From: a virus
DNA length: 25,204 bases
Direction: 5' to 3' (one strand)
IMG/VR virus record: IMGVR_UViG_3300034101_002454
Location: 1-25,204 of that record
The notes beneath the pieces are model-generated. The model was not told where the DNA came from, did no database searches, and was given only the letters and a program-made list of their open reading frames with translations. The translations under genes were made by a program, and so were the position numbers. Within the stretch, counting starts at the first letter, position 1; every line of letters starts with the position of its first letter. Shown one piece after another: positions 1-23,023 of the stretch.

Positions 1-57
1 CACTTGTTCACCTATTATGGTTTTATTGTCTTTTTCTCTGGTTAGTTTGTGTGTCAT
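1..57 (-). CDS. Start of an unknown protein, cut by window edge
   Basis: An ATG at 57 opens a reading frame that runs off the left edge after 19 codons. The visible residues start MTHKLTREKDN and are charged. I do not recognise the family from so little sequence. The frame lies 70 bases downstream of the TonB receptor gene on the same strand, so it may be read on from it. The 58-127 gap is AT-rich and I see no clear terminator in it. Confidence 0.45.
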   Translation of the reverse strand, partial: MTHKLTREKDNKTIIGEQV

Positions 58-127
58 AGTCTATTAATTTTTTACAAAAATAGACACACCAATTGACATT
101 TCCAAGCAATAATCAAAAAATATTTTA

Positions 128-2956
128 TTAAAACTTATGACTAACACCCAATGTTAAAGTCACACCAGGATTGACACTATTGAATACTTGTTTCTCAGCT
201 TTATAGGAGTGATAAAAACTTTCAACTTTATCATTAAGAATATTTTGAACTCTAAAATCAATTGATGTATTCTTAATCTTTTGACTCACAGAAAGATTCA
301 ATGAATGAAATGGTTCATCATAAACATCAGGAGATAATCCAGTTCCAACAATGGATAATGTTTGTCCTTTAACATTATAAAACAATCCAACATTCAACCC
401 ATTTTTATCGTTCTTATAAGACAATCCAGTATTGATTACAAATGGTGATTGTCCTGCCATAACTCTTGTGTTATCAATGTTTTCATTTAACCTTTCATAT
501 TGTTTTCTTGCTCGATATTCTGTCTCTGTCATCGTTATTTGTGACTTAACAAGTGTGACATTGGTATTGAAATAAAAGTTCTTTAAAAACGATTTTCTTA
601 ACTCCAATTCCAATCCATACACATCACCATTACCAACATTTCTTGGTTGATATTCAGTTGATGTTTGTTGTTCAGGTATTCTAACAAGTTCAATTGGATT
701 ATTGAAATGTTTATAAAATCCTGATACAGAATAAAAATCATTTTTATTTGATAACTCCCATCTTAAATCCAAATTATCAATATTTGTTGATTTCAAATTT
801 CCATCCCAAGTTCCATTATATGTGAATAACCCACCATTGAATATTCTATTTGTGATTGGGTCTAATATTTGAGCATAAGATAATTCCTTGAATGATGGTC
901 TTGCAATCGTTCTTGAATATGATGTTCTTAGATTTTGTTTTGGTGTTATTGAATATATGATATTTGTTGATGGGAATAGATTTATGGTTTCCATAACTTT
1001 ATCATTAACCAAATTGTTTCCATTCACATCACCATTAGCGTATCTTATATCTCTTCCTGTATGTCTTTGAATGAAGTATTCGGTTCTTAACCCCAAATTA
1101 ATCTTTAACTTATTCTTAATGTTATAATTACCTGAAACATATGCTCCAAGATTATTAACATTTGATGAATATTGATTTGGATTTGGATTCGCATTCCCTG
1201 ATTGGATATATGTTCCATTAACATCAGATGGAAATAAGTTATCTGTATTCATTACAAGATTGGGGTTTGGTGATGCCCAAGATTGTGGTTTTGAAAACAT
1301 CAATTCAAATAACTTGATTTCATAGTTTCTCAATTTATATACGTGAGATAAACCAAAATTCAATTTGAAGTTTTCATATTCTTTATTTATATCAATCTTT
1401 GATTGGTTATTAAATTCACCCAAGTTTCTCCATATCCTTGATGGATTTCCCGCTTCACCAGATGAAAATGAATATGAACCATCATAACTAAATGGTGTCT
1501 TTCTAATGTCAGGGTCAATTGATGATGAATAAGTTGGAGATAATTTCCAATCAATATTCCATTTATTTATTTTATGTTTTCCATTTAATAACAAATTGGT
1601 TAATCCTCTTTGATTGTATTCAAGATGATATGATATTGCTTCATAACCTGATTGTCCAACCGCTGATGAATTGTTATCAATATTAAATTGTCCTACCCTA
1701 CTCTCACCACTTTGTAAATGAACAAAGTTTAATTTGTATTTACTCTTACCTTTAACAAAATTAAAACCAACCAATCCACTTAATTGATTGTTGATTTCCG
1801 ATAACTTTCCATTTTGTTTGGTCGCATATATTAATTCGTTTTGACTATTGTCTGATGACCTTTGGTATTCACCATACTTTACATCAGTATAAAATCTATA
1901 ATCTGTTTTGTGATTAATTGAAATAATATAACCAAAATTATCTTTTGTATTACCATAAGTGAAACCCATTCCATAATCCAACATACTCATATTTTCAGTT
2001 CCACCCAAGGTTGAATTAAGTGATTGTAATGTATTAATTATGTTTTGTTGGTGTTGGGTTGATGTAGTATTATTTAATCTGTTGAATGGAGTTGGGATAT
2101 AACTTCTATTAAGTTCTGTTGGTAGTCTTCGTAATCCTCCATCAAATCCTAATACATCAGTTCCACTACCTTTCTCTGATATAAAGTTTGGATTTAGATT
2201 AACTTGGGGGTTATATCCAATTGAAAATGAAAATGAACCTTGTTTTGATACCGGTATATCTTTTGTTTCAATATTGATTAATCCACCAGTAAAATCTGCT
2301 GGTAGTTCTGAGGTTAAAGTTTTTGATACGACAATATTATTTAATAAATTGGTGGGGAATATATCCATTTGGAGTGAGTTTCTATCAGGATCCAATCCTG
2401 GTATTTCAACCCCATTCATTAATGTCTTTGAGTATCTATCACCCAATCCTCTAACATAAACATATTTCCCATTTTCTATTGATACACCTGTTACACGTTT
2501 ACTTGCTTCAACTGCATTACCATCACCAGTTGATTTCATTTTCTCAGAACTAATACCATCAACCATTGTGACTGATTTCATTTTCATATCAATCAAACCA
2601 ACTTCATTTTTAACAATTCTGTCAGCTGTAATAATAACTTCACCAGTTTCTAATACATTTTCTTTAAGTTCAACATCAGGTATGGTTGTTAATTCACCAA
2701 CCAATACAATATCTTCTTGTATTTCTTTTTTGTAAGAAACATAAGAAAATTCCAAATCAACTGTGTCTTTGTCTGAGTCTAGGGTGAATATACCTTCAAT
2801 GTCTGTTGTTGTTGCAACTGAAGTTCCTTTAATTAAAATTGTAACACCAATTAGAGGTTCTTTTGTGTTTTCATCTACAACTTTACCAATGATTGTAAAT
2901 TGTGAAAAGGATTTAAATGATAATAGGAGTAGTAGGACTAAAAAGATATTTTTCAT
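128..2956 (-). CDS. TonB-dependent outer-membrane receptor, complete
   Basis: The 942-residue protein has the full Bacteroidota TonB-receptor layout. Residues 1-19 form a signal peptide (MKNIF, a leucine run, then FKSFSQ). Residues about 21-100 form a carboxypeptidase-D regulatory-like beta domain (GKVVDENTKEPLIGVTI). A VIITA segment near 106-110 may be the TonB box. The plug domain follows at about 140-235 (YVRGLGDRY, NGVEIPGLDPDR, ADFTGGLINIETKDIP). The rest is beta-barrel strands ending in a C-terminal Phe, as outer-membrane proteins need for insertion. There is no frameshift. Such receptors import large ligands through the outer membrane using TonB/ExbBD energy, and many phages use them as receptors. 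It sits beside a phage-type operon, which is unusual: it could be a cargo gene, a receptor decoy or superinfection-exclusion factor, or mark a prophage or assembly boundary. The ligand cannot be told from sequence. Family call very sure; role unknown. Confidence 0.95.
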   Translation of the reverse strand: MKNIFLVLLLLLSFKSFSQFTIIGKVVDENTKEPLIGVTILIKGTSVATTTDIEGIFTLDSDKDTVDLEFSYVSYKKEIQEDIVLVGELTTIPDVELKENVLETGEVIITADRIVKNEVGLIDMKMKSVTMVDGISSEKMKSTGDGNAVEASKRVTGVSIENGKYVYVRGLGDRYSKTLMNGVEIPGLDPDRNSLQMDIFPTNLLNNIVVSKTLTSELPADFTGGLINIETKDIPVSKQGSFSFSIGYNPQVNLNPNFISEKGSGTDVLGFDGGLRRLPTELNRSYIPTPFNRLNNTTSTQHQQNIINTLQSLNSTLGGTENMSMLDYGMGFTYGNTKDNFGYIISINHKTDYRFYTDVKYGEYQRSSDNSQNELIYATKQNGKLSEINNQLSGLVGFNFVKGKSKYKLNFVHLQSGESRVGQFNIDNNSSAVGQSGYEAISYHLEYNQRGLTNLLLNGKHKINKWNIDWKLSPTYSSSIDPDIRKTPFSYDGSYSFSSGEAGNPSRIWRNLGEFNNQSKIDINKEYENFKLNFGLSHVYKLRNYEIKLFELMFSKPQSWASPNPNLVMNTDNLFPSDVNGTYIQSGNANPNPNQYSSNVNNLGAYVSGNYNIKNKLKINLGLRTEYFIQRHTGRDIRYANGDVNGNNLVNDKVMETINLFPSTNIIYSITPKQNLRTSYSRTIARPSFKELSYAQILDPITNRIFNGGLFTYNGTWDGNLKSTNIDNLDLRWELSNKNDFYSVSGFYKHFNNPIELVRIPEQQTSTEYQPRNVGNGDVYGLELELRKSFLKNFYFNTNVTLVKSQITMTETEYRARKQYERLNENIDNTRVMAGQSPFVINTGLSYKNDKNGLNVGLFYNVKGQTLSIVGTGLSPDVYDEPFHSLNLSVSQKIKNTSIDFRVQNILNDKVESFYHSYKAEKQVFNSVNPGVTLTLGVSHKF

Positions 2957-3017
2957 ACTTATGGTTTTGACAAATCATAAATAGGAAAAATAGTTGATAT
3001 AGTAAAATGTTTTGTAT

Positions 3018-3035
3018 TAACTTATTGTTAAGTTA
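3018..3035 (-). terminator. Weak hairpin after the kinase-like gene
   Basis: A perfect 7-bp AT-rich inverted repeat (TAACTTA, 4-base loop, TAAGTTA) lies immediately after the stop of the kinase-like gene. No clear T-tract follows on the minus strand, so termination would be weak. The gap 2957-3017 must also hold any promoter for the TonB receptor gene. Confidence 0.3.
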
Positions 3036-3881
3036 TTAAAATGCCATTACATCAAAATGGACTAGTTCTCCATTTATTTGTCCAATGTTTTCACCATGCA
3101 AATCTTTTGTTGCAATATCGTTAGCTTCCAACTTCAATAATAATTCTCTGTATTTTTCAATATAGTCTATCAATTCATCATAGGTAATATTTACACTCGA
3201 AACTGGTTTTTCTCTTCTTGGAATGTAATAATTACTCTCGTCTTCATCATCGAATTCTTCATCTTCCTCATCATCTTCATCACTACTATAATAACCACTA
3301 ATACCAATTGGTGGGATTTCATCTTCAGGTTCAGGACTTTCCAATCTATCAACCAAATTATCCAAAAACTCTTCATCATAATCATCCCAAAAATCAGAGT
3401 CAGAATAATTTGCACCCATATAAAACATCGTTGTGTAAATATCTTTTTCTGTTTTTGAAATTGGTTTTGCTTTATCCATTAGAATACCATAAATGTTATA
3501 TTCAGGATAATATTCATAACCATAATAATTTACAATACCAGGTATTTCTTTTCCTACTATTTTTTCAATTCCCTTTATTTCATCTTCGTCTTGGGTAAGT
3601 TTCAATATTTTTGTACCATCAGCTACAAATGCAATTCCATAATATCCTCTACCTGCATATGAAATTTTATTAATTCCAAATTTTTTTGATAAGTCATTAA
3701 CAATATCTTTGATGTCAGCTCCATCAAGTCCTTGTTTTATTTTTTTAATACCTCTTTCGTTTTTAGTTAAAACATCTGTTTTCCAATCTTTTCTTAAATT
3801 TTTAATGTTTCTTATATCACCAAAATTACCTAATTGTTCATTAAGTATTTTATACTGACTTTCACTTATTATTATTTTCAT
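3036..3881 (-). CDS. Protein-kinase-like protein with N-terminal targeting-like segment
   Basis: 281 residues. A glycine-rich loop (GRGYYG, 77-82) is followed by a beta-strand lysine (KILKL, K94). Near the C-terminus comes a catalytic-loop-like KDLHGENIG (D260, H262, N265) and a metal-binding-like FDV (D277). These match the order and spacing of eukaryote-like and bacterial Asp-Leu-His-x-x-Asn kinases. The chain ends four residues after the DFG-like site, so the usual activation segment and C-lobe are missing. A very acidic low-complexity insert lies at about 201-216. Residues 1-15 (MKIIISESQYKILNE) resemble a capsid-targeting propeptide with L-N-E before Q16. The start overlaps the upstream gene's stop as ATGA, so the gene is the last of a coupled operon. 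It may phosphorylate host proteins early in infection or be a pseudokinase. Kinase fold is inferred from motifs only. Confidence 0.6.
   Translation of the reverse strand: MKIIISESQYKILNEQLGNFGDIRNIKNLRKDWKTDVLTKNERGIKKIKQGLDGADIKDIVNDLSKKFGINKISYAGRGYYGIAFVADGTKILKLTQDEDEIKGIEKIVGKEIPGIVNYYGYEYYPEYNIYGILMDKAKPISKTEKDIYTTMFYMGANYSDSDFWDDYDEEFLDNLVDRLESPEPEDEIPPIGISGYYSSDEDDEEDEEFDDEDESNYYIPRREKPVSSVNITYDELIDYIEKYRELLLKLEANDIATKDLHGENIGQINGELVHFDVMAF
3849..3881 (-). repeat. Repeated 33-bp N-terminal coding cassette, copy 1
   Basis: The first 11 codons of the kinase-like gene match the first 11 codons of its upstream neighbour (4514-4546) at 31 of 33 bases. The two mismatches change Ser6 to Thr6. 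The proteins differ completely beyond this segment. Confidence 0.85.
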
Positions 3882-4546
3882 ATAAATAACTTACCTTTAA
3901 CTCCAAATTTATTTTTTATTTCATCTTCACTCATTCCACTATCTTTTAATTCTTTTCCAAGTGGGGTATATTGTAAACCTAAATTACGCCCAACTGAAAT
4001 TAAATTAGGTAATGATTCAATTTTTGAACCCAATAACTCAAGAGTACCAACTTCTTTTAATTCAGGTAATGATTTAATGTTTACATGATTCAATTTAAAT
4101 AAACCATCAACTGAAGTTAAATCAGGTATTGATGTAATTTTACAATTACTATAAATGATTATATTCTTATTTGTACTTACTAACTCATCCAAATCACCAT
4201 CATTTAATCTGAAAAAATGTATTGTTTTCAAATTTGGTAATTTGAATATTAAGTCAATTGTTGTTTTTGATAAGTTATCATACACATTTAAAATAGTCTT
4301 TTTTGTTATTTTTTTCAAATTTATTACATATGGTTTATATTTAAAAAGTTTGAATAATTCTTCATAATTTTCCAATATTGTACTCTGTTTTATCTTAAAA
4401 CCTTTTGCAATTTCAAATGCCATATCAATATTTGTTTCATCAAATGACTCAATTAAGTACATAATCTTTCCAAGTAATTTGTTTTCCTCGGTTTCTTCGT
4501 TTTCAAATATTAGTTTATACTGACTTTCTGTTATTATTATTTTCAT
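3878..4546 (-). CDS. Leucine-rich-repeat-like phage protein with targeting-like N-terminus
   Basis: 222 residues. The C-terminal half carries irregular leucine-rich repeats: LPNLKTI, ITSIPDLTSV, IKSLPELKEV and IESLPNLISV, at about 103-195. This pattern is typical of short protein-binding LRR segments in phage and effector proteins. Residues 1-15 (MKIIITESQYKLIFE) match the start of the next gene almost exactly and end in I-F-E before Asn16, as in a prohead-protease site. No signal peptide or membrane segment is seen. Its start lies one base downstream of the preceding gene's stop, and it overlaps the kinase-like gene by 4 bp (ATGA), so all are probably co-translated. A binding partner cannot be predicted. 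LRR call moderate; function unknown. Confidence 0.7.
   Translation of the reverse strand: MKIIITESQYKLIFENEETEENKLLGKIMYLIESFDETNIDMAFEIAKGFKIKQSTILENYEELFKLFKYKPYVINLKKITKKTILNVYDNLSKTTIDLIFKLPNLKTIHFFRLNDGDLDELVSTNKNIIIYSNCKITSIPDLTSVDGLFKLNHVNIKSLPELKEVGTLELLGSKIESLPNLISVGRNLGLQYTPLGKELKDSGMSEDEIKNKFGVKGKLFI
4514..4546 (-). repeat. Repeated 33-bp N-terminal coding cassette, copy 2
   Basis: This is the partner of the cassette at 3849-3881, with 31 of 33 bases identical. It encodes MKIIITESQYK. Confidence 0.85.
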
Positions 4547-4547
4547 A

Positions 4548-6194
4548 TTATATTTCGTTTAATCTACCCATTAAATTTTCATTATAATCATTTTTATTTA
4601 TATTAGGATTAAAATAGTCTCTGAATCTTGGTTTTGGAAAATCAATACTTCCTTCACTTAATAATTCATTAAATACACAACTAGGATTATCATAACAATT
4701 CTCATAATATTCATCAAGAGTGTCCTCATCCATCTTACGAGTATAATCTTTCAAATCAATTTGTATCTTAATTGTTTCATTACTGAATTCAATAACATTT
4801 CCATATTCTTCTAAAGCTGATTTTAAGGTGTCTCTTAAATGATTAATATATTCATTTATTCCAACATCATTTGCTGCATCAGTGATTGCATTACAAATAT
4901 AATGCTCATCATCATATTGTACTATCTTCTCTTCCAAAGACATATCTTCATCAACCTCATCACCACTTTTACTAATCCATTCGTCAATAATTGACTCAAT
5001 TAATTTTTTATTTTCAGGATTTACAATATCAAATATTGACTCCCAATCATATCCAAAATCCATATCCCAAACTGATTCCCAAATTGAATCGGACATTATT
5101 TGTTCATACCAACTTTCTCTTTCAACCATCTCTTTACCCTCACTATTTTTATATCTACGAGTTGAATAAGTATCACCCTGCAAATATATTCCAAGTTCAT
5201 TTGGTGATAGTTCCAAAACAAATCTTGTTTGGGGAGGTTCAACATCAATAATACCCATCTCACCCAACTTTCTTTTTAAACCTCTTGTATTAAATATTTC
5301 AGGTCTATCGTTATATATTTTTCTAATTGTTGCTTCAGGTAAATCAGATAATTTGAAATCTTGGCTAGAAGCATATTCACTTCCAAAACCTTGGATTAAA
5401 TAATTATCTTCACCTGTAGTATCCCAACTACCTGAAGCATAAAACAATGGTTCAATATATTTGTGATATTCTTCTTTTGGTTTTGAGTTCTTAGGTCCTT
5501 TTAATTGATATAATGTTCCATCAGTATCAATAGCAGCAGTTAAATGACTTCTATTAATCTTATATTTTCCACCAGGTAAAACTTTATCACTTCTTAATGA
5601 ATATAGATAACCATATGAACTTCTTCCACAATGTCCCATTCTTTCGCATTCTTCGGGTGAGTTTTTAACACCAAGGTCAGCCCAATAATATCCTTCACCA
5701 TTTTCATTTCTAAAATCAATTAGGATTGGAGCATTTTCAATATAATTTATGGCACCTTGACCAATATTTAAACTATCGTGCCATTGACTTGATAGTGAAG
5801 CAATTTGTACTATTGATAAATCATCCAAACTACTTTTATTACCATTCAATCCCACTTGAATATAATCCATAATTTCTGATAATACATTTCTAAGTATGTA
5901 TACAGTTAATCGAGAGTTCAATCGATTTTTTGCTGCAGATAAAATATCTTTGTTTGGAACATTAGGTTCAGCTTGACTTTTAGCATCATCATAAAAATGT
6001 TTAAGATATTTGTTGGCCAACCATACAGATAATTTCTTACCTATTTCATCGAATACTTGAGCTAAATCTTCTTTCAATCCCAACTTATCCATTAGAATTT
6101 CTTTTTTGGATTCATTCAACAATCCAAAATTATCATTATATTCCTTTAATAAATTTAGGATTTTTTTGTGGTAATATTTTTCTTTTAATTTCAT
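4548..6194 (-). CDS. PcfJ-like phage protein, third copy of a tandem module
   Basis: 548 residues, a paralogue of both halves of the upstream gene. The N-terminal region (1-150) is helical and includes LLNE|SKKEIL at 25-34, a possible prohead-protease site. The conserved core is EECERMGHCGRSS (181-193), LYSLRS (197-202), SHLTA (216-220), LYQLKGPKNSKP (228-239) and YHKYI (243-247). The order His-Cys-Gly, S-L-R, H-L-T, Q-x-K-G-x-x-N-x-K-P resembles the PcfJ-like domain found in phages and conjugative plasmids, whose biochemical role I cannot state. The C-terminal region (330-548) is acidic and varies between copies. The ATG overlaps the preceding stop by 4 bp, implying translational coupling. 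The invariant Cys and His could be catalytic or metal-binding, which is inference. Confidence 0.7.
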   Translation of the reverse strand: MKLKEKYYHKKILNLLKEYNDNFGLLNESKKEILMDKLGLKEDLAQVFDEIGKKLSVWLANKYLKHFYDDAKSQAEPNVPNKDILSAAKNRLNSRLTVYILRNVLSEIMDYIQVGLNGNKSSLDDLSIVQIASLSSQWHDSLNIGQGAINYIENAPILIDFRNENGEGYYWADLGVKNSPEECERMGHCGRSSYGYLYSLRSDKVLPGGKYKINRSHLTAAIDTDGTLYQLKGPKNSKPKEEYHKYIEPLFYASGSWDTTGEDNYLIQGFGSEYASSQDFKLSDLPEATIRKIYNDRPEIFNTRGLKRKLGEMGIIDVEPPQTRFVLELSPNELGIYLQGDTYSTRRYKNSEGKEMVERESWYEQIMSDSIWESVWDMDFGYDWESIFDIVNPENKKLIESIIDEWISKSGDEVDEDMSLEEKIVQYDDEHYICNAITDAANDVGINEYINHLRDTLKSALEEYGNVIEFSNETIKIQIDLKDYTRKMDEDTLDEYYENCYDNPSCVFNELLSEGSIDFPKPRFRDYFNPNINKNDYNENLMGRLNEI

Positions 6195-9100
6195 AAATGG
6201 TATCTTTCAATATAATTTAAGCTGTCATTTAGTTGTTCATTGAAGTAATCATTGTCAATATCAACTTCATCTATATCAGGTCTTCTCCAATAAGGTTTTG
6301 ATATAATGTCTCTACCAACTAACTCTTTAAATACATCAGAGGTAGAAAAGTCACCATAGTCTTCTTCTATTCCATCATATACTTCAATAACTTCTGGGTC
6401 ATCAATATCAACAAGTTCTCCAATATCACCTTCAATATCAAGACTAATAGCAACTCCATAATCATTCCAAATAACTGAACCATAACCTTCAAGTGTAGTT
6501 AATAAAGATTCTTTTAATTTTCCAATTGCCGAATCAGCTATACTATCACGATAACAATCGTGATAAACTTCGTAAGTATAATTAATAATTAAATTTCTGG
6601 TATCTATTTTTCTTATTAAATTAGCCACTAGTCTTGATATTTGTAAACTCCATTCTGTAATATTTTCAACTTCTTCCAATTGTTTTAATTGTTCTTCAGT
6701 TGGTTTCATCATTTTTAATAATCTTATCATATGTGACCTTAATCCAGCATAAACATTTTCTTTTAAAACTTTTTCTAATGATGGTTCTTTATAACTAGGT
6801 AATGAATATTCTTCACCAATCCATTCATATAACTCATCTATTTTGTTGGGGCCTAAAAGAGCGTGTGATAAGTATGTTTTATTCACCACATGCCTTGAAC
6901 TATAAGGATTACTACTTTGGTTTTTTGTGGTGTAAATTACTTCATCATTATCAATATAATAATGTATAGAATCAAAATCTATTTCCACATAAAAATCTGT
7001 TGGTAATGGTTCAACTTCTATTTCAATTCCCAATTCAGCCATTTTACTTTTTAACCCTCTTGATTTGAATATTTCAGGTCTAATTTCATACAAATCTTTG
7101 AGTGTCTGCATTGGTAAATCTTCTAATTTGAAATCTTGACTAGAAGCATATTCACTTCCAAATTCTTTGATGAAATAATCATCATCTTCATCTTGTAAAT
7201 CAAATAAAGGTAAAATGAATTTATGATATTCTTCTTTTGGTTTTGAGTTCTTAGGTCCTTTTAATTGATATAATATTCCATCATTACTTATTGATGCTGT
7301 TAAATGACTATCATTAACCTTATACTTTCCATCTGGTGTTAATCTATAGCTCCTTAATGAATATAATGACCCAGAAGAACTTCTTCCACAATGTCCCATC
7401 CTTTCACACTCTTCAGTAGAATTATTCGTTTGTAGGTTAACCCAGTAATACCCTACACCATTTTCATTTCTAAAATCAATTAGGATTGGATTGTTTTCAA
7501 TATAATTTATTTTACTATCACCAACATTCAAACTATCGTGCCATTCTTTTGACTTCTCTTTAATTTGTTCAAAAGTTAAATTAACCAAAGACGATTTATT
7601 CCTATTCAATCCATTAATAAAATAATCCATAATTGAATTTAAATCTTGTCTTAATTGTGACGTTGGATTTAATTCTTTTGCCACACGTTCTTTGGGCATA
7701 CTAGTAAGTTTTTGAAAACTATCAATCACTTTATTAGCAAAAAAAGTAGATAACCCACCAGCAATTGAATCAAACATTTGAGCTGTATCAGGTTTTAATC
7801 CAGTTTTGTTAATTAGTATTTCTAATTTTGATTTGGCCTCAGTAAGGGTATCACTATGTTTGGAGTTATAGTCTTTTAATAGTTTTATAATCTTGTTTTG
7901 ATGATAAATTTCATTCATTGATTCCTTTTTAATTATTTCCTCCAACTTATTCAATTCTCTATATAATCTCTTGTTGAATATTTCAACATTAATTTCTATT
8001 TCACTTACACTAGGTTTTTCCCAAATAGGTTTTTCAATTAGGTCACGTTTCACTATCATATCAACAACATTATCCATATAAATCTCCTCAAAATCCTCAT
8101 AAACTTCATTATAAATTTCAATAATTTTTGGGTCATCAATATCAACTATTTCACTAAGGTCGCCCATTATTTTAATGTGACCGTGTAGCGTATCATTGAT
8201 AATTGAACCATAATATTCAAGAGTTTGAATTAACCTTGGATAATAATCTTCATATACTGGTTCAAGTAATGCTTCCCTATATGTTTTAGATATTTCAGTA
8301 CTAATATCACTACCAGCTTCAGTTTGTTTAATTAATATTGGTAATGACACTTGATTGAATTTTAATTTTTCGTCAATTGGAACTTCAATCATAATGATTT
8401 GTCTCATATAATCTTTTAGCTCCTCACTAACATATTTTTCCAAAATATCCTCAGCGTAAATATTGCCGTGAATGTCAATATAATTTTCTAATGATTCATA
8501 ATCACCAGACAAAATAATCTCAGATAAATAAATAGTTTTAGACCAAAAATTACGGACAACATCAAACCCAGATTCATCCCCTTGAATATATTTTCTTATA
8601 TCTTCATATGGAATAGATGTATCAAAATCTGTTGGTAATGGGTCAACTTCGATTTCAATTCCAAATTCAGCCATTTTACTTTGTAGTCTTCTTGATTTGA
8701 ATATTTCAGGTCTTACCCTATATAAATCTTTGAGCGTCTCCATTGGTAAATCTTCCAATTTAAAGTCTTCTTGTGTTTCGTATTCTGTCCCAAAACCTTG
8801 AATCAAATATTCATCATCCTCATTTTTAACATCAAATAATGGTAAAATATATCTATGATATTTTTCACTTGGTTTTGAATTTTTTGGACCTTTTAATTGA
8901 TATAATTTTCCATCATCACCAATTGATGCCGTTAAATGACTTTTATTAACCTTATATTTCCCATTTTGTTGATAACTTCTTAATGAATATAAACTACCTA
9001 AACTACTTCTTCCACAATGACCCATTCTCTCACATTCTTCTTTGGAGTCTTTTGTTCTTAAATCAACCCAATAATATCCATTACCATCTTCATCTCTGAA

Positions 9101-9571
9101 ATCAATTAGGATTGGATTTTTTTCAATATAATTTAAAGAACCTTCACCAATATTTAAACTATCGTGCCATTGTCTTGATTTTGATACAATTTGCTGTATT
9201 GGTAAATCATCCAAACTACTTTTATTACCATTCAATCCAACTTGGATGTAATCCATAATTCCTGGTAATAATCTTCTTAAAGCTGAGGGTGTTATAGTAG
9301 AATTTAAATGATGTTTAGCTACCTCTAGAATGTCTTTATGGGGAACATTAGGTTCAGCTTGTTTTTTTGCATTATCGTAATAAAATTTAAGATATTTGTT
9401 AGCCAACCATACAGATAATTTCTTACCTATTTCATCAAATACTTGAGCCAAGTCTTCATTTAATCCCAACTTATCCATTAGGATTTCCTTCTTGGATTCA
9501 TTCAACAATCCAAACTTATCATTATACTCCTTTAATAATTGTATTATTTTCTTTTGATTAATTAATGACAT
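6191..9571 (-). CDS. Fused double PcfJ-like phage protein
   Basis: I start the gene at the ATG at 9571 (MSLINQKK), giving 1126 residues. The longer in-frame extension to 9646 would run into non-coding AT-rich sequence beside a terminator and gives an unlikely peptide. Module 1 covers residues 1-551 and module 2, starting MNEIYHQNK at 7918, covers 552-1126. Each has the ECERMGHCGRSS, YSLRS, SHLTAS and YQLKGPKNSKP signature and a helical N-terminal part. Module 1 has L-N-E before Ser26 and module 2 has L-T-E before Ala, again like prohead-protease sites. The internal ATG at 7918 might serve as a second start. The fusion may come from a small indel, since another frame meets a stop just before the junction. 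It heads the operon ending at 3036. Function unknown. Confidence 0.7.
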   Translation of the reverse strand: MSLINQKKIIQLLKEYNDKFGLLNESKKEILMDKLGLNEDLAQVFDEIGKKLSVWLANKYLKFYYDNAKKQAEPNVPHKDILEVAKHHLNSTITPSALRRLLPGIMDYIQVGLNGNKSSLDDLPIQQIVSKSRQWHDSLNIGEGSLNYIEKNPILIDFRDEDGNGYYWVDLRTKDSKEECERMGHCGRSSLGSLYSLRSYQQNGKYKVNKSHLTASIGDDGKLYQLKGPKNSKPSEKYHRYILPLFDVKNEDDEYLIQGFGTEYETQEDFKLEDLPMETLKDLYRVRPEIFKSRRLQSKMAEFGIEIEVDPLPTDFDTSIPYEDIRKYIQGDESGFDVVRNFWSKTIYLSEIILSGDYESLENYIDIHGNIYAEDILEKYVSEELKDYMRQIIMIEVPIDEKLKFNQVSLPILIKQTEAGSDISTEISKTYREALLEPVYEDYYPRLIQTLEYYGSIINDTLHGHIKIMGDLSEIVDIDDPKIIEIYNEVYEDFEEIYMDNVVDMIVKRDLIEKPIWEKPSVSEIEINVEIFNKRLYRELNKLEEIIKKESMNEIYHQNKIIKLLKDYNSKHSDTLTEAKSKLEILINKTGLKPDTAQMFDSIAGGLSTFFANKVIDSFQKLTSMPKERVAKELNPTSQLRQDLNSIMDYFINGLNRNKSSLVNLTFEQIKEKSKEWHDSLNVGDSKINYIENNPILIDFRNENGVGYYWVNLQTNNSTEECERMGHCGRSSSGSLYSLRSYRLTPDGKYKVNDSHLTASISNDGILYQLKGPKNSKPKEEYHKFILPLFDLQDEDDDYFIKEFGSEYASSQDFKLEDLPMQTLKDLYEIRPEIFKSRGLKSKMAELGIEIEVEPLPTDFYVEIDFDSIHYYIDNDEVIYTTKNQSSNPYSSRHVVNKTYLSHALLGPNKIDELYEWIGEEYSLPSYKEPSLEKVLKENVYAGLRSHMIRLLKMMKPTEEQLKQLEEVENITEWSLQISRLVANLIRKIDTRNLIINYTYEVYHDCYRDSIADSAIGKLKESLLTTLEGYGSVIWNDYGVAISLDIEGDIGELVDIDDPEVIEVYDGIEEDYGDFSTSDVFKELVGRDIISKPYWRRPDIDEVDIDNDYFNEQLNDSLNYIERYHL

Positions 9572-9630
9572 AATATTTTTTATATAAACTATAAATATTA
9601 AAGATTCTGTCTTTATACCTATTAACCAAC

Positions 9631-9660
9631 AAAAATAAAACCCCACTTTTTATGGTGGGG
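9631..9660 (-). terminator. Rho-independent terminator after the Dps-like gene
   Basis: A 6-bp GC stem (CCCCAC/GTGGGG) with an 8-base loop lies directly after the Dps-like stop codon. T-rich sequence follows on the minus strand. A run of T also follows on the plus strand (9662-9669), so the site may work in both directions. It separates the Dps-like gene from the PcfJ-like operon. Confidence 0.75.
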
Positions 9661-10645: not shown

Positions 10646-10904
10646 TTGTCTGAGTTATTTTATTGTAATTAAATTTACTTGCGAATTCCATTGCGTCTTC
10701 TAAACTATTCCAACACATTTTAGTCCATAAAGAGTTCCAATAAACATCATCTTTTTTTCTGTGGGCTAAAATATACCAGGATAAACCATTTCTTGAAATT
10801 TGTATATGAAAATTATCTTTTCTACAATTCCAGCTTACACTAAGACTAAACTTACCCTCAACTTTTTGATTGAATGTGGTTTTGTTTACAACTTTCTTTT
10901 CCAT
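10626..10904 (-). CDS. Unknown 92-residue Trp-rich phage protein
   Basis: Starts MEKKVVNKTTFNQ. Six tryptophans (for example SWNC, LSWY, VYWNSLWTKMCWNSL) and alternating strands suggest a compact beta-rich fold with a helix at the end (EDAMEFASKFNY). I do not recognise the family. The start overlaps the smpB end by 19 bp, so the two are likely translated together. No signal peptide. Confidence 0.65.
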   Translation of the reverse strand: MEKKVVNKTTFNQKVEGKFSLSVSWNCRKDNFHIQISRNGLSWYILAHRKKDDVYWNSLWTKMCWNSLEDAMEFASKFNYNKITQTNEHDNV

Positions 10905-11302
10905 CCTAATTCTCTATTTAAATCACGTTCTTGAATTGTTTGTCGCTTATCGTGAATCTTCTTCCCTTGTGCCAAAACTATTTCAACTTTAACTAGTCCC
11001 CTATCATTAACATAAATTTTGGTTGGGACAATTGTTAAACCATTAATAAGTTTTGATTTCAATTTATTAAGCTCAGATTTCTTTAATAACAACTTTCTTT
11101 CCCTTTTTGGTTCCCCATTTGGTAAAGATATTGAAATATTTTTAACAAACAATTCTTGGTCTTTGAAATAACAATATGTGTCAGTTAAATTTGCATTTCC
11201 ATTACGGATGGATTTAACTTCCATTCCTGTCAATACAATACCAGCTTGATAGGTTTCAAGGAATGTATATTCAAATTTGGTTTTTCTATTTTCAATATTC
11301 AT
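10886..11302 (-). CDS. smpB: SsrA-binding protein SmpB
   Basis: 138 residues from the ATG at 11302. The longer reading (MMMMKTK from 11323) comes from the upstream gene's acidic tail and is unlikely. The full family signature is present: NRKTKFEY, ETYQAGIVLTGMEVKSIRNG (beta-barrel core), NLTDTY, RKLLLKKSELNKL, GLTIVPTKIY, LVKVEIVLAQGKKIHDKR and the basic C-terminal tail. It is shorter than bacterial SmpB (about 150-160) because the central loop before RKLLL is reduced. SmpB binds tmRNA and guides it into stalled ribosomes for trans-translation. I see no tmRNA gene in this window. In a phage it could support or divert host rescue. It overlaps both neighbours, lying inside an operon of small unknown genes. 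Family call very sure. Confidence 0.93.
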   Translation of the reverse strand: MNIENRKTKFEYTFLETYQAGIVLTGMEVKSIRNGNANLTDTYCYFKDQELFVKNISISLPNGEPKRERKLLLKKSELNKLKSKLINGLTIVPTKIYVNDRGLVKVEIVLAQGKKIHDKRQTIQERDLNRELGWKRKL

Positions 11303-11531
11303 CTTCGTCTTCATCATCATCATATTCTAATTCCCAATTTGCTTCATTGTTTTTGTTTGTGATATATTGTTCCAATTCTTTGGCGACTTCCAAGTATTTT
11401 TCTCTTAACTCGTGGAATTTTTCATCTTTTATTTCTTTGAATGAGGAGTAGTGTTTGAAACAATAATGAAACCCTTCTTCTTTCATTCTGTAATAAACAT
11501 CATTCCAATTTTCTGCTTCTTCTGCTTTCAT
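11292..11531 (-). CDS. Small protein with acidic C-terminal tail
   Basis: 79 residues, starting MKAEEAENWNDVYYRMKEEG. A helical, charged body (EIKDEKFHELREKYLEVAKELEQY region, 31-55) is followed by a tail of Asp and Glu (YDDDEDEDEY). Acidic tails of this kind can mimic nucleic acid or bind basic partners, but that is speculation here. It overlaps smpB by 11 bp. No known family recognised. Confidence 0.65.
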   Translation of the reverse strand: MKAEEAENWNDVYYRMKEEGFHYCFKHYSSFKEIKDEKFHELREKYLEVAKELEQYITNKNNEANWELEYDDDEDEDEY

Positions 11532-16613: not shown

Positions 16614-16642
16614 AAATAAAAAAAAGGTCTTAAATGACCCTT
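16614..16642 (-). terminator. Terminator after the methyltransferase operon
   Basis: A 7-bp stem with one G-U pair (AAGGGTC/GACCTTT) and a 6-base loop begins inside the stop codon of the first methyltransferase. A long T run follows on the minus strand. Confidence 0.75.
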
Positions 16643-17462
16643 ATTTGATATTTTTAAAAATATGTGTAATTACATCTACAGTCCACCCATTCCCAAGTAA
16701 TTTAAACCTTTCGGTGTTTGAGACTCCCCTTGTATAATTTAATGGTATTGTTTGTAATAGTTCACAATCTTGTGGTGTATATTTGTATATCTGACCCAAT
16801 TCATTTTTACAATAAGATGAAATCTGTCCTTTATACATTGATGCTGTTAAACAAGATGCCTTATCTCTATATGACTTAACGACATCCTTTCTTGTTCCCC
16901 TACCATAGAAAGGTAAATCTAAATAGTTTGGATATTTGTCCTTAAATTCTGGAGAGATTACATCACAAATATTTAACCCCAAGTCTTTTGGTTGTGTTAT
17001 ATTTGGGATATTTGTCCAATACAACCTTGGCCTATTTTGGGCTGAAACTAATCTACTATTAATCTTAATTGGTTTGACACCAAGATGTTCAGTGATTACA
17101 TCTTGCCATTCTTCTCTCATTACAACATTTTCAAGTAAAAAGTATTTAGGATTAGTTTCTTTTAATAGTCTAACATACTCAAAGAATAATTTACTCCTTG
17201 GGTCATTGAAATTCAATTGTTTTCCTACCTTTGAGAATCCTTGGCAAGGTGACCCACCTACGAGAAGGTCTATTGGTGGTAAATCACTTCCTTTAATTTC
17301 CGTTATATCACCCAATTGAATTGTGTTGGGGTAATTTTGTTGTGTAACCTTAATTGAACTTTTATCAATCTCGGATGCAAAATACTTATCATATTTTATT
17401 CCAATTCTATTTAGGGCAATTTGACCACAACTTAACCCATCAAACAAACTTAATACATTCAT
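16641..17462 (-). CDS. DNA cytosine-C5 methyltransferase 1
   Basis: 273 residues with all core motifs: I NVLSLFDGLSCGQ (2-14), IV GGSPCQGFS with catalytic C73, VI ENV (111-113), VIII QNRPR (142-146) and X GNGWTVDVI. It transfers methyl from S-adenosylmethionine to C5 of cytosine in a target set by the region between VIII and X. That region (DKYPNYLDLPFYGRGTRKD, about 170-205) differs from the other copies, so it likely has its own target. The start overlaps the preceding gene by 4 bp. It is compact for a Dcm enzyme (usually 320-450), mainly because the target-recognition part is small. Phages use such enzymes to escape host restriction. Confidence 0.92.
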   Translation of the reverse strand: MNVLSLFDGLSCGQIALNRIGIKYDKYFASEIDKSSIKVTQQNYPNTIQLGDITEIKGSDLPPIDLLVGGSPCQGFSKVGKQLNFNDPRSKLFFEYVRLLKETNPKYFLLENVVMREEWQDVITEHLGVKPIKINSRLVSAQNRPRLYWTNIPNITQPKDLGLNICDVISPEFKDKYPNYLDLPFYGRGTRKDVVKSYRDKASCLTASMYKGQISSYCKNELGQIYKYTPQDCELLQTIPLNYTRGVSNTERFKLLGNGWTVDVITHIFKNIK

Positions 17463-18280
17463 AATTTAATATTTTTAAAAATATGTGCAATTACATCAAC
17501 AGTCCAACCATTACCAATCATTTTGTATCTTTCTGTGTTACTAACAACAGATGTATACCCTTCTGGTATTGTTTGTAATTTCTCAAATTCAGTTGGGTTT
17601 AATAATCTACATAAAGTTTTATCCTCGTTGAAGAGATATTGATTTGTGTGACAATTCTTGGTGGTTAAACAATTTGATTTCTCATTCTTAACCCAATTAG
17701 GATTTTTATTTATTCTTTCTTTTGTTCCCCATTTATTATAAAAACATTTTGGTATTTCTCTAAAATTGTCATCAGTTAATACATCTGATAGTTTAATCTT
17801 CTTATCTTCAGGTTGGGTTATGTTGGGAATGTTTGTCCAGTATAATCTGTCTCTGTTTTGACCAGATACTAGATTACTATTAATTCTTATAGGTTCAACA
17901 CCCATTTCCTTTGTGATGATGTCTTCCCATTCTTTTTTCATCTTTACATTTTCAAGTAAAAAATATTTGGGTTGAACTTCATTTAGGACTCTAACAAATT
18001 CCCAAAATAAACCACTCTTTCCATCAAAACCTGTTCTGTTACCTACAGATGAAAAACTTTGACAAGGACTGCCACCAAATAACACATCTATCTTTGGTAA
18101 GTCCGAACCTTTGATTTTATGAATATCACCTAACTGAATTGTGTTAGGGTAGTTGTGTTGAGTTACTTTAATTGCGTGAACATCAATCTCAGAGGCGTAA
18201 TAGTTATCGTAACTAATCCCAACTTTATTTAAAGCGATTTGGCCACAACTTAACCCATCAAAAAGACTTAATACATTCAT
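17459..18280 (-). CDS. DNA cytosine-C5 methyltransferase 2
   Basis: 273 residues, paralogue of its neighbour. The first 70 residues are nearly the same: NVLSLFDGLSCGQ, then EID, VTQHNYPNTIQLGD and IKGSDLP. Catalytic motif GGSPCQSFS (C73), ENV, QNRDR and GNGWTVDVI are intact. The target-recognition region differs (REIPKCFYNKWGTKE and following), pointing to another recognition site. It overlaps neighbours by 4 bp on both sides. No partner restriction endonuclease is seen in the window, so this is an orphan methyltransferase, as is common in phages. Confidence 0.92.
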   Translation of the reverse strand: MNVLSLFDGLSCGQIALNKVGISYDNYYASEIDVHAIKVTQHNYPNTIQLGDIHKIKGSDLPKIDVLFGGSPCQSFSSVGNRTGFDGKSGLFWEFVRVLNEVQPKYFLLENVKMKKEWEDIITKEMGVEPIRINSNLVSGQNRDRLYWTNIPNITQPEDKKIKLSDVLTDDNFREIPKCFYNKWGTKERINKNPNWVKNEKSNCLTTKNCHTNQYLFNEDKTLCRLLNPTEFEKLQTIPEGYTSVVSNTERYKMIGNGWTVDVIAHIFKNIKL

Positions 18281-18639
18281 TTAAACACTTCTATTTTTGC
18301 ATCCATTTTTATTAATTCACTCCAATTACCTTTATAGGTTGTTGCTTTGACTGGTCTATTATCAATCCAATGATATTCTTGACCATCCTTACACCTTGGT
18401 TTATCCATTATTAGTCCGTGGAATTTGAATCCTTTCAATCTTAACCAATCTTCCGTAATATGTCTATCTTTTGATTCTCTTGCGGTAAAAAAAGTTATAA
18501 TGTTTCCTTCATCATACCATTTATTTAACATCAATCTACTTTCTTCAAAGTGTAATGCAAATGGAAATAAATGGGAATCTTCATTGTTAATGTCTTCACA
18601 TATTGTTCCATCAATGTCAATCAAAAAAATCTTATTCAT
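18277..18639 (-). CDS. HAD-superfamily phosphatase-like protein
   Basis: 120 residues. Motif I LIDIDGTI supplies the nucleophile D8 and acid/base D10. Motif II is FFTAR, and a late DNRP may provide the metal-binding aspartate. There is no cap domain, as in the small phage HAD proteins and the phosphatase half of polynucleotide kinases. It sits between two methyltransferases with 4-bp overlaps on each side, so it is co-translated with them. It may act on a sugar phosphate, a nucleotide or a DNA 3' end. Whether it is tied to DNA modification is unclear. Confidence 0.8.
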   Translation of the reverse strand: MNKIFLIDIDGTICEDINNEDSHLFPFALHFEESRLMLNKWYDEGNIITFFTARESKDRHITEDWLRLKGFKFHGLIMDKPRCKDGQEYHWIDNRPVKATTYKGNWSELIKMDAKIEVFK

Positions 18640-19739
18640 AATTCTATGTTTTTAAATATATGTGCAATGACATCAACTGTCCAACCATTACCTAACATTT
18701 TTCTAGCCTGACTATCACTTACAACATTAGTATAACCATCCGGAACTGTCTGTAATCTTTCCATTTCAATTGGATATAGTTTTCTATATTTCCAACTTGG
18801 GTCAACAATAAAATCTAAAGGAGATTCAACGGTTACCAAACAATTTCCTTTACCATTTTTATTTGATACATACATTTTAAATTGTTTACTTCTTGGGGTT
18901 GAATCTTTACCAGTTTCCATTCTTATTTTTCTACGCATTTCTTTTCCCTCATCTGTTCTTGTTTCATAAAAAGAAAAAGGTGCTTCATCGAATAAATCAA
19001 TATGTACTTTTTTACCATTTATTGCATCCAAAATCATTGTACGTTGTTTTCGTTCAATACTATTCCAAGCAGCAGCCCCATTATATGTTGCGGTTAAAGC
19101 ATACGCTTTTTCATCCATAGTCATTCGACTATCAATACAACCATCAACAATAATATCTTTTAATGTAATTCCCTTATCTTCAGGTTGGGTTACATTTGGA
19201 ATATTAGTCCAATATAATCTTCTTCTATTTTGAGCAGAAACTAATGCTGAATTAATTTCAATCGGTTCAACACCCAATACTTCACTAAAGATATTTTGCC
19301 ATTTTTTTAACATTTTAACATTTTCAAGAAGAAAATATTTTGGTTTAACTTCTTTTAATATTCTAACATATTCCCAAAATAAATAAGATTGTCCTTCAAA
19401 TTGAAAGCCTTCTTCTTTTAATTGTAGATATTGTTCTAATGTTAATATTTCAATATCTTCTTTTGTTGACATCCCTTTCATCTTACCAGCAAATGAAAGA
19501 TTTTGACAGGGTGACCCACCACACATCAATGTAATTGTTGGTAAATCAGAACCTTTTATTTTTGTTATATCCCCCAATTGAATCGTGTTAGGATAGTTGT
19601 GTTGGGTTACTTTGATTGCGTGAACATCAATCTCGGAAGCATAATAATTGTCGTATTTTATTCCTACTTTGTTTAATGCTATTTGGCCACAACTCATCCC
19701 ATCGAAAAGTCCCAGAACATTTTTTATCTCCTTTTGCAT
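18636..19739 (-). CDS. DNA cytosine-C5 methyltransferase 3, with altered start
   Basis: 367 residues. Core motifs are intact: NVLGLFDGMSCGQ (7-19), GGSPCQNLS (C78), ENV, QNRRR and GNGWTVDVI. It differs from the two shorter copies by about 95 residues, through an insert after the catalytic loop (KGMSTKEDIEILTLEQYLQL, 84-103 region) and a longer target-recognition region. The start MQKEIK replaces the MN that opens the other copies. It overlaps the end of the GIY-YIG gene by 16 bp. A severed MNVLSLFDG start lies on the far side of that endonuclease, so this gene was probably cut and given a new start. Confidence 0.9.
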   Translation of the reverse strand: MQKEIKNVLGLFDGMSCGQIALNKVGIKYDNYYASEIDVHAIKVTQHNYPNTIQLGDITKIKGSDLPTITLMCGGSPCQNLSFAGKMKGMSTKEDIEILTLEQYLQLKEEGFQFEGQSYLFWEYVRILKEVKPKYFLLENVKMLKKWQNIFSEVLGVEPIEINSALVSAQNRRRLYWTNIPNVTQPEDKGITLKDIIVDGCIDSRMTMDEKAYALTATYNGAAAWNSIERKQRTMILDAINGKKVHIDLFDEAPFSFYETRTDEGKEMRRKIRMETGKDSTPRSKQFKMYVSNKNGKGNCLVTVESPLDFIVDPSWKYRKLYPIEMERLQTVPDGYTNVVSDSQARKMLGNGWTVDVIAHIFKNIEL

Positions 19740-20882: not shown

Positions 20883-20924
20883 TTTTTTTAAAAAAATATA
20901 TAAAATTTATTTTTACTAATCAAA

Positions 20925-21661: not shown

Positions 21662-23023
21662 TTAATTTGTTCTTACAACAACAAAATTGTATCTAATACC
21701 ATTAGGTCCTGTTATATAAACATCATCATAACTTCCATCATAACTTGATATTGTACCAATACCATCATGTTCAACAATATCTTCAGCGACTCCTCTAACA
21801 TTAACAAAATATTTGATTCTATCATCCTCACCCATACCTCTTAACCAATCAACAGGGTCTTTCATAGCTCTTCTAACATTTTGACTTACTTTTTCTTCAA
21901 TCATTTCCTCTGTTGGTTCATCATTAGGTTCAATACTATCCAATTCGTTTTGTAATTCTTCTATTTGTTGTTCCAAGTCAGTAATTTCATCTTCCTCTTG
22001 TGTATTTTCTAATTGTTCTTGTAAATCACTTATTTGATTCTCTAAAACTTCTTTTCTTTCCTCTTCTTCATCAGTTAATTCATAATCATCTTGTCTAAAA
22101 TAACTTTCTGGACTTTCTCTTATATCGTTATCATAGAACTCCTCAATATATTCCCTAATACTATTTTCATCAAGGTTGCTCTCTATTAAATGTTGACTTA
22201 TACCATCCAATCCAATATCATCCAATAATGTTTCTGTATTTTCAATTGCAGCTTCATACATATCATCATAAGTTCCAACCATATATTCTTGATTTCTCAA
22301 TCCAATAACTTCAAAATTGTATAATGTTCCATAAGATTTATAATTTGTTGGAATTATATAATATACATCAGCATAGTTCTCTTGTAATTCTTCTATTTCA
22401 TCTTCTATTCTATCTATTTCTTCATACAATTCATCTCTTTCTTCAGAATCTGATTCTAATCCTACTCCTTGTTGAGTAAGCTCTTCTATTCTTTCTAGTT
22501 TATTATTTATTAATTCTTTGGTTTCATTATCCATTTCATCTAGTTTACCCTCACTAACTAAATGGTCAAATAAAGCATTTGCTGCCAATCCTTCTTCATC
22601 AATGCTTGGATTGGTCAAATCCCAATCACCATCTTCTCTTCTTGATTCAGCCCCAGCCAATTTCTTTAATTCAGCTTCTCTAGTTCTTTTAGCTTCAATT
22701 GGTGAGCCATAATCCGAGATGTATCCCTTAACTTGAACTCCCTCAACACTAGAAATATTTGTATCCCTTATATCCAAATTCCCATCAATATAAGCAATAT
22801 TACCCAATGTTTTAATTGGTTTACCACTTAAATTTAAATTACCAGTAACATATAATTTTTTACCTTCAAAGAATTTTGGTTTTAAAGCCGCATTTGAATA
22901 AGATGCCAATTCCAATATATTCAATAGTTCTTCTGGACTTATTTTATAATATTCCTCTTCTTGTTCTTTTATAACTTTAATCAAGTGTTTAAACTGACCT
23001 TGACTTAATATAATTTTTCTCAT
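21662..23023 (-). CDS. Coiled-coil and LRR-like protein with targeting-like N-terminus
   Basis: 453 residues. It opens MRKIILSQGQFKHLIKVIKE before Gln21, ending in I-K-E like the other candidate head-targeting segments. Residues 57-105 hold two or three leucine-rich repeats of the GNLNLSGKPIKTL and GNLDIRDTNISSV kind. Long glutamate-rich coiled coils lie at about 180-225 (EERDELYEEIDRIEDEIEEL) and 320-375 (EEERKEVLENQISDLQEQLE). A beta-rich C-terminal domain (about 390-453) ends FVVVRTN. Acidic overall. Its operon context is a single gene, with a divergent + gene 93 bases away. It may be an internal head or scaffold-like protein; function unknown. Confidence 0.65.
   Translation of the reverse strand: MRKIILSQGQFKHLIKVIKEQEEEYYKISPEELLNILELASYSNAALKPKFFEGKKLYVTGNLNLSGKPIKTLGNIAYIDGNLDIRDTNISSVEGVQVKGYISDYGSPIEAKRTREAELKKLAGAESRREDGDWDLTNPSIDEEGLAANALFDHLVSEGKLDEMDNETKELINNKLERIEELTQQGVGLESDSEERDELYEEIDRIEDEIEELQENYADVYYIIPTNYKSYGTLYNFEVIGLRNQEYMVGTYDDMYEAAIENTETLLDDIGLDGISQHLIESNLDENSIREYIEEFYDNDIRESPESYFRQDDYELTDEEEERKEVLENQISDLQEQLENTQEEDEITDLEQQIEELQNELDSIEPNDEPTEEMIEEKVSQNVRRAMKDPVDWLRGMGEDDRIKYFVNVRGVAEDIVEHDGIGTISSYDGSYDDVYITGPNGIRYNFVVVRTN

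Follow-up and report, generated by a model that had tools for sequence, protein, structure and literature searches.

The TonB-dependent receptor gene studied here is carried by phages, is intact and is under purifying selection, and with moderate confidence we propose that it would serve a phage-borne outer-membrane system for phosphorus compounds powered by host TonB. Its product nests within a clade of bacterial receptors, a partner lipoprotein is encoded in other phage lineages, and the bacterial relatives lie in a phosphate-starvation (Pho) context. Expression of the receptor during infection, its substrate and its benefit to the phage are what we infer. The window analysed is an entire IMG/VR record of 25,204 bp; sequence further to the left was read from longer relatives.

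The receptor gene runs from an ATG start to a single stop codon and contains the following features (window coordinates).

128–2956, minus strand: TonB-dependent receptor of 942 aa, an intact open reading frame with CarbopepD_reg_2, Plug, TonB_dep_Rec_b-barrel and OMP_b-brl_3 domains
2903–2956, minus strand: signal peptide, residues 1–18, MKNIFLVLLLLLSFKSFS followed by QF, recognized by eye rather than by a signal-peptide program
2630–2890, minus strand: N-terminal CarbopepD_reg_2 beta domain, residues 23–109 (Pfam)
2624–2644, minus strand: TonB-box-like GEVIITA, residues 105–111; conserved as GEV[IV]ITA across the four phage lineages, with a similar motif in close bacterial relatives
2315–2578, minus strand: Plug domain, residues 127–214 (Pfam), with motifs RGLGDRYSK and IPGLDPDRN
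239–1675, minus strand: beta-barrel, residues 428–906 of the Pfam match
131–133, minus strand: terminal Phe, from the sequence

All four Pfam matches exceeded the curated cut-offs (E-values: CarbopepD_reg_2, 5.8e-16; Plug, 2.5e-9; TonB_dep_Rec_b-barrel, 2.5e-28; OMP_b-brl_3, 3.8e-22), and the arrangement of a TonB box, between the N-terminal domain and the plug, then the Plug and then a beta-barrel is that of a TonB-dependent receptor. Most positions of the two plug motifs were invariant or nearly so in a 36-row alignment. The Gln that follows the likely cleavage site of the signal-peptide-like N-terminus matches the Bacteroidetes Q-rule (PMC5837995). A preliminary description of this DNA had read the gene as a complete receptor with signal peptide, N-terminal beta domain, plug, barrel and terminal Phe, resembling its neighbours in strand and A/T-richness. 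The open reading frame, Pfam matches and sequence bear out the first statement; the shared strand and the GC values (0.29–0.31 for the receptor versus 0.24–0.32 for the neighbours) agree with the second. GC skew was weaker over the receptor than over most other minus-strand genes of the window, which plausibly reflects amino-acid make-up.

Two narrower class assignments were rejected. The SusC/RagA model TIGR04056 scored 54 bits against a cut-off of 368 and matched the N-terminal part only, so the receptor is not called SusC; its partner is also not SusD. TIGR01782 (TonB-Xanth-Caul) gave 190 bits against a cut-off of 310, and the bacterial relatives likewise fell below this cut-off. The AlphaFold2 model of the receptor was too poor for use (mean pLDDT 49.6).

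The receptor was found at 78–90% identity in six other IMG/VR contigs, giving four phage lineages in all: the window, G001, G002 and G003 (with G004–G006). DNA comparison showed that the genes around the receptor are collinear in G001 (64.5 kb), G002 (32 kb) and G003–G006 (98, 77, 66 and 44 kb), the last four being 99.8–100% identical to one another and derived from different samples. Two elements directly upstream of the receptor are shared as follows.

3036–3881, minus strand: phage gene of 281 aa, starting MKIIISESQ, next to the receptor in both the window and G001
2973–2987, minus strand: leader TTCCTATTTATGATT, shared by the four phage lineages

A single alignment at 92% identity between window positions 47–3883 and G001 covers the receptor, the junction and the 281-aa gene, and phage genes flank the receptor on both sides in G001, G002 and G003. 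The six further collinear contigs thus confirm the preliminary placement of the receptor on a phage, beside phage genes. The main alternative named there was a bacterial gene at a prophage edge or a chimeric assembly, a reading that suits a receptor placed at the end of the window. However, the junction recurs in independent assemblies, four of them near-identical contigs from different samples; the longer relatives carry phage genes to the left of the receptor, where host genes would have marked it as bacterial; and a relative with an empty site exists. Both the prophage edge and the chimera are therefore excluded for practical purposes.

The lineage contigs match phage families of SbcC/SbcD, thymidylate synthase, endolysin and endonuclease VII, and also encode DnaK, DnaJ and an IMPDH-like enzyme. 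Phage-type genes of the window comprise smpB, DUF3310, DUF5856, DUF6011, NUDIX, C5 methylase and GIY-YIG genes and a weak DHH match. The families listed for the lineage contigs included neither a terminase nor a capsid gene, as may be the case when only pieces of a very large genome are available; their phage identity therefore rests on the remaining phage genes and on the proteins that they have in common with LR745206. Of the 147 G003 proteins, 19 have relatives in this 634-kb megaphage, compared with 5 in bacterial control DNA totalling 0.4 Mb. We did not rely on phrog_2 as a hallmark test; it matched 6 of 30 records but also 11 of 14 control genomes.

A more distant syntenic relative, G339 (86.5 kb), has the genes from both sides of the receptor site, lacks the receptor and the lipoprotein, and keeps a homologue (identified by eye) of the gene directly downstream of the receptor in G001. 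Because G339 keeps both flanks without the receptor, the receptor is optional cargo in a phage backbone. Taken together, the contigs, the tree, dN/dS and the empty site describe an auxiliary gene, host-derived and fixed in a phage lineage.

Relatives of the receptor were sought in a sample of 295 genomes, drawn from the class to which a Saprospiraceae MAG belongs; 49 of these genomes had strong matches (best, 57%). The phylogeny against host receptors that the preliminary description had suggested placed the four phage receptors in one clade (100/100), nested in a 100/100 clade with eight bacterial receptors from Bacteroidota; which sister is nearest to the phage clade is uncertain in this tree (86/67). 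The LR745206 receptor (∼26% identity) lies on a long separate branch, and because it falls apart from the four-lineage clade, phages have probably acquired such receptors at least twice.

Among the phage receptors dN/dS was 0.09–0.21, indicating purifying selection. A captured host gene without phage function, carried as a neutral hitch-hiker, would be in keeping with the empty-site relative and with the window and G001, where the lipoprotein is missing from its usual place. Against this, the frame is intact and dN/dS stays at 0.09–0.21 across four lineages that have diverged to 78%, and the receptor has a phage-like GC content of 0.29–0.31 compared with 0.33–0.45 in the closest bacterial loci. 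Purifying selection largely refutes neutral carriage, which we consider very unlikely.

One part of the receptor has a different history from the rest.

1757–2236, minus strand: mosaic block, residues about 241–400, where identity of the window receptor to G003 equals or exceeds that to G001/G002, whereas over the remainder of the gene it is closer to G001/G002

Residues 241–300 of the window receptor are 62% identical to G001 and 80% to G003, whereas segments outside 241–420 are 88–100% identical to G001. The discordance of residues about 241–400 with the remainder of the gene suggests recombination between phage lineages. Such mosaicism can occur in exposed parts of receptors, and TonB-dependent receptors commonly serve as phage receptors; both points would suit a role in phage-phage or phage-host conflict, in which the protein might dilute or substitute for the entry receptor, prevent superinfection or label infected cells. 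Yet purifying selection acts on all of the import machinery, including the TonB box and the plug, which disfavours a plain decoy because a decoy needs no such machinery, and the lipoprotein partner for uptake is encoded by relatives within the lineage. As no positive evidence was found for replacement of the entry receptor or for a block on competing phages, two suggestions of the preliminary description, we regard a conflict role as distinctly unlikely.

In bacteria, a gene for a lipoprotein of about 400–450 residues lies directly upstream of the receptor in 30 of 30 loci, and the same arrangement occurs in five further loci (L008–L012). G002 and G003 also encode this lipoprotein (78% mutual identity, dN/dS 0.18), at one conserved place about 16 kb before the receptor in G002 and about 23 kb before it in G003. 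The corresponding position in the window is as follows.

20883–20924, no strand assigned: lipoprotein site of the G002 and G003 lineages, with the lipoprotein gene absent here

This place is a short gap in the window, G001 and G339. The 25-kb window and the G001 fragment, both from incomplete genomes, carry no lipoprotein gene at this site or at any other. In LR745206 it ends a few bases before the receptor. The phage lipoprotein matched no Pfam or NCBIfam family; its AlphaFold2 model is confident (pLDDT 88.9), and its closest structural matches are right-handed beta-helices, for instance a family-3 pectate lyase (probability 1.00, with no match at E < 0.001). We found the lipoprotein in 63 IMG/VR contigs; judged by protein content, 28 are members of this lineage and the other 35 are not, and some of the 35 could be bacterial DNA. 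Of the 31 larger records searched, only 1 had a receptor-like match: on this IMG/VR contig (L133, 5136–9032), a TonB-dependent receptor of another type, 904 aa long, immediately precedes the lipoprotein gene, next to a DUF5856-like gene.

The bacterial receptor/lipoprotein pairs lie among Pho-type regulatory genes. An OmpR-type, PhoB-like regulator was encoded within one gene of the pair in 12 of 20 bacterial loci, and 14 of the 16 members of this regulator family among 329 genes were immediate neighbours of the pair. A PhoR-like kinase was present in 8 of the 20 loci and a Porin_O_P-type porin in 3. The regulator tested matched PhoB best and the kinase tested matched PnpS and PhoR best, all below the curated cut-offs. 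One locus (L086) has the order lipoprotein, receptor, PhoB-like, PhoR-like, as in Flavobacterium johnsoniae. In that bacterium, a TonB-dependent transporter, Fjoh_0545 (pf07715, pf13715, pf14905), and the FII lipoprotein Fjoh_0546, which has a pectin-lyase fold, belong to the PhoBR cluster, and both are induced by Pi depletion only, not by Fe or N limitation (fold changes of 8.0 and 9.9 on a log2 scale; PMC8115612). The likeness of our receptor to this pair ("PUSIV") consists in the receptor domains, the pectin-lyase-fold lipoprotein and the PhoBR neighbourhood of the bacterial relatives; it was judged by domains, partner and gene order. In contrast to the Fjoh_0545/0546 locus, the phage contigs have no phoBR beside the receptor, and the lipoprotein, when present, is 16–23 kb away. 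Lidbury et al. only inferred organic phosphorus as the substrate and noted that the lipoprotein may bind glycans; they also reported modest homology of FI–FIII lipoproteins to a low-phosphate lipoprotein of Caulobacter crescentus (PMC8115612). The latter is ElpS, a Proteobacterial surface lipoprotein made under phosphate starvation and released in a T2SS-dependent manner (PMC2996285), and its likeness to our lipoprotein is by way of that report.

We propose the phosphorus role because of the bacterial partner lipoprotein and the Pho context, which also make feeding of the host during infection the best supported of the three suggestions in the preliminary description. That description had caught the carriage of the receptor but missed both the partner and the phosphate-regulon setting. 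The infected cell could instead be fed nutrients without phosphorus, such as oligosaccharides, iron complexes or vitamins: TonB-dependent receptors import many substrates, the right-handed beta-helix of the lipoprotein is of the pectate-lyase type and this fold often binds glycans, and Michniewski et al. suggested that the "SusC" of Mar_Mega_1 and LR745206 takes up carbohydrates. However, our receptor is not SusC by the curated model, PhoB-like genes stand beside its bacterial relatives in 12 of 20 loci, and the F. johnsoniae pair answers Pi depletion rather than Fe or N limitation. We consider a non-phosphorus substrate unlikely.

For phosphorus uptake, the sequence of events would be as follows. 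A lineage of large Bacteroidota phages took the receptor gene from a Bacteroidota host and kept it as stable cargo; in bacteria, this receptor type pairs with the beta-helix lipoprotein and is counted among the Pho genes. In the infected cell the transporter would be synthesized from the phage gene and inserted into the outer membrane by host Sec and BAM, and its conserved TonB box would let host TonB-ExbBD drive import. The receptor might then import phosphorus-containing compounds, with or without the lipoprotein as a surface binder, and the imported phosphorus could offset the phosphate demand of a large DNA genome.

Possible Pho control was examined upstream of both genes. Many bacterial pairs are preceded by 7-bp repeats at 11-bp steps (TTAACAT-N4-TTAA...), the architecture of a Pho box. 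Upstream of the window receptor, one element resembles part of such an array.

3014–3031, minus strand: two-repeat element of period 11, TTAACAATAAGTTAATAC, recognized by eye, resembling half of the bacterial Pho-box-like array

As a Pho-box-like half array, TTAACAATAAGTTAATAC is suggestive only. The four-repeat Pho-box model gave p = 0.31 upstream of the window receptor and 0.10–0.46 across the four lineages. Over whole contigs, many bacterial sites reached 18–35 bits and phage contigs at best 16, and the regions upstream of the receptors were not among the top matches on phage contigs. Only the G002 lipoprotein site ranked first on its own contig (p = 0.005). Another viral lipoprotein gene (L121, 8001–9275) gave p = 0.003; the 160 bp directly upstream of it hold three to four tandem TTAACAT-like repeats at 11-bp spacing, and of the viral genes considered it is the strongest candidate for control by host PhoB. 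By eye, the L121 contig has an intein-bearing DNA-polymerase-like gene and a DHFR-like gene. Among viral lipoprotein genes, 11 of 36 had p < 0.05 compared with 15 of 206 intergenic controls, the rows being partly duplicate and not independent. A first comparison (p = 2e-10) was rejected, its controls often having coding sequence upstream; fewer lipoprotein sites stood out with intergenic controls and dinucleotide shuffles. That large Bacteroidota phages repeatedly acquired a two-part Pho-regulon importer, in some cases under host PhoB control, as a widespread outer-membrane means of viral phosphorus acquisition, is a tentative extension in which we place slightly less than even confidence.

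Phage genes for phosphorus uptake are known mainly as those of cyanophage periplasmic proteins. Cyanophage pstS, the established precedent, is a host-derived gene for phosphorus acquisition, and host PhoBR controls some phage genes (PMC10976474). Our receptor resembles it as an auxiliary phage gene taken from the host for proposed phosphorus uptake, and differs in two ways: it is a TonB-dependent transporter of the outer membrane rather than a periplasmic binding protein, and its phages belong to a different bacterial phylum; by analogy, the receptor system would be the outer-membrane counterpart of PstS. The preliminary description had called the cargo unusual. That holds only in part: carriage by a phage is not new, because a putative TonB-dependent receptor ("SusC") was reported in the megaphages Mar_Mega_1 and LR745206 in one sentence in 2021 and read as carbohydrate uptake; the main text of that report does not mention the lipoprotein beside the LR745206 receptor (PMC9723777). 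As in those phages, the receptor here belongs to a very large phage genome, and LR745206 also has the lipoprotein directly upstream, whereas its receptor, ∼26% identical, is on another branch. Relative to the open-access literature, three things appear to be new: the lipoprotein pairing, the Pho link and a separate lineage of phages documented by many genome comparisons. If the phosphorus reading is true, viral manipulation of nutrients extends to another membrane and another phylum, and the megaphage "SusC" would be worth re-reading as phosphate-related. A phage copy under selection also offers a handle on the substrate question of the bacterial pair.

Several other genes of these phages were noted. 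SmpB, the tmRNA partner, is encoded at window positions 10886–11323, is kept in G001, G002 and G003 and has a relative in LR745206; no tmRNA gene was found in the window. Three similar C5-cytosine methylase-like genes lie nearly consecutively at 16641–19739, with a small gene (18277–18639) between them. Positions 4548–9646 hold three tandem units of a large-protein family with GHCGRSS and HLTA motifs, the copy number of which varies between lineages; this repeated family had no Pfam or PHROG match.

Short common N-termini (MKIIITESQY, MKKIVRLTESDLVRLVKRV, MNLKQTIRRILREE) occur on many unrelated phage proteins, for example those encoded at window 3036–3881, 3878–4546 and 21662–23023 (minus strand) and by many G003 genes (L021–L024). 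They were present on 22 of 121 G003 proteins and on 0 of 329 in bacterial control loci, and most have [IL]-x-E early in the sequence. The T4 prohead-protease site follows capsid-targeting sequences, and because [IL]-x-E resembles that site, these N-termini may mark proteins packaged in the virion. Finally, G003 encodes, at 33574–35274 (L021, 13574–15274), a protein with an Ig-like domain and a type IX secretion C-terminal sorting domain, on account of which the phage seems to use the host T9SS.
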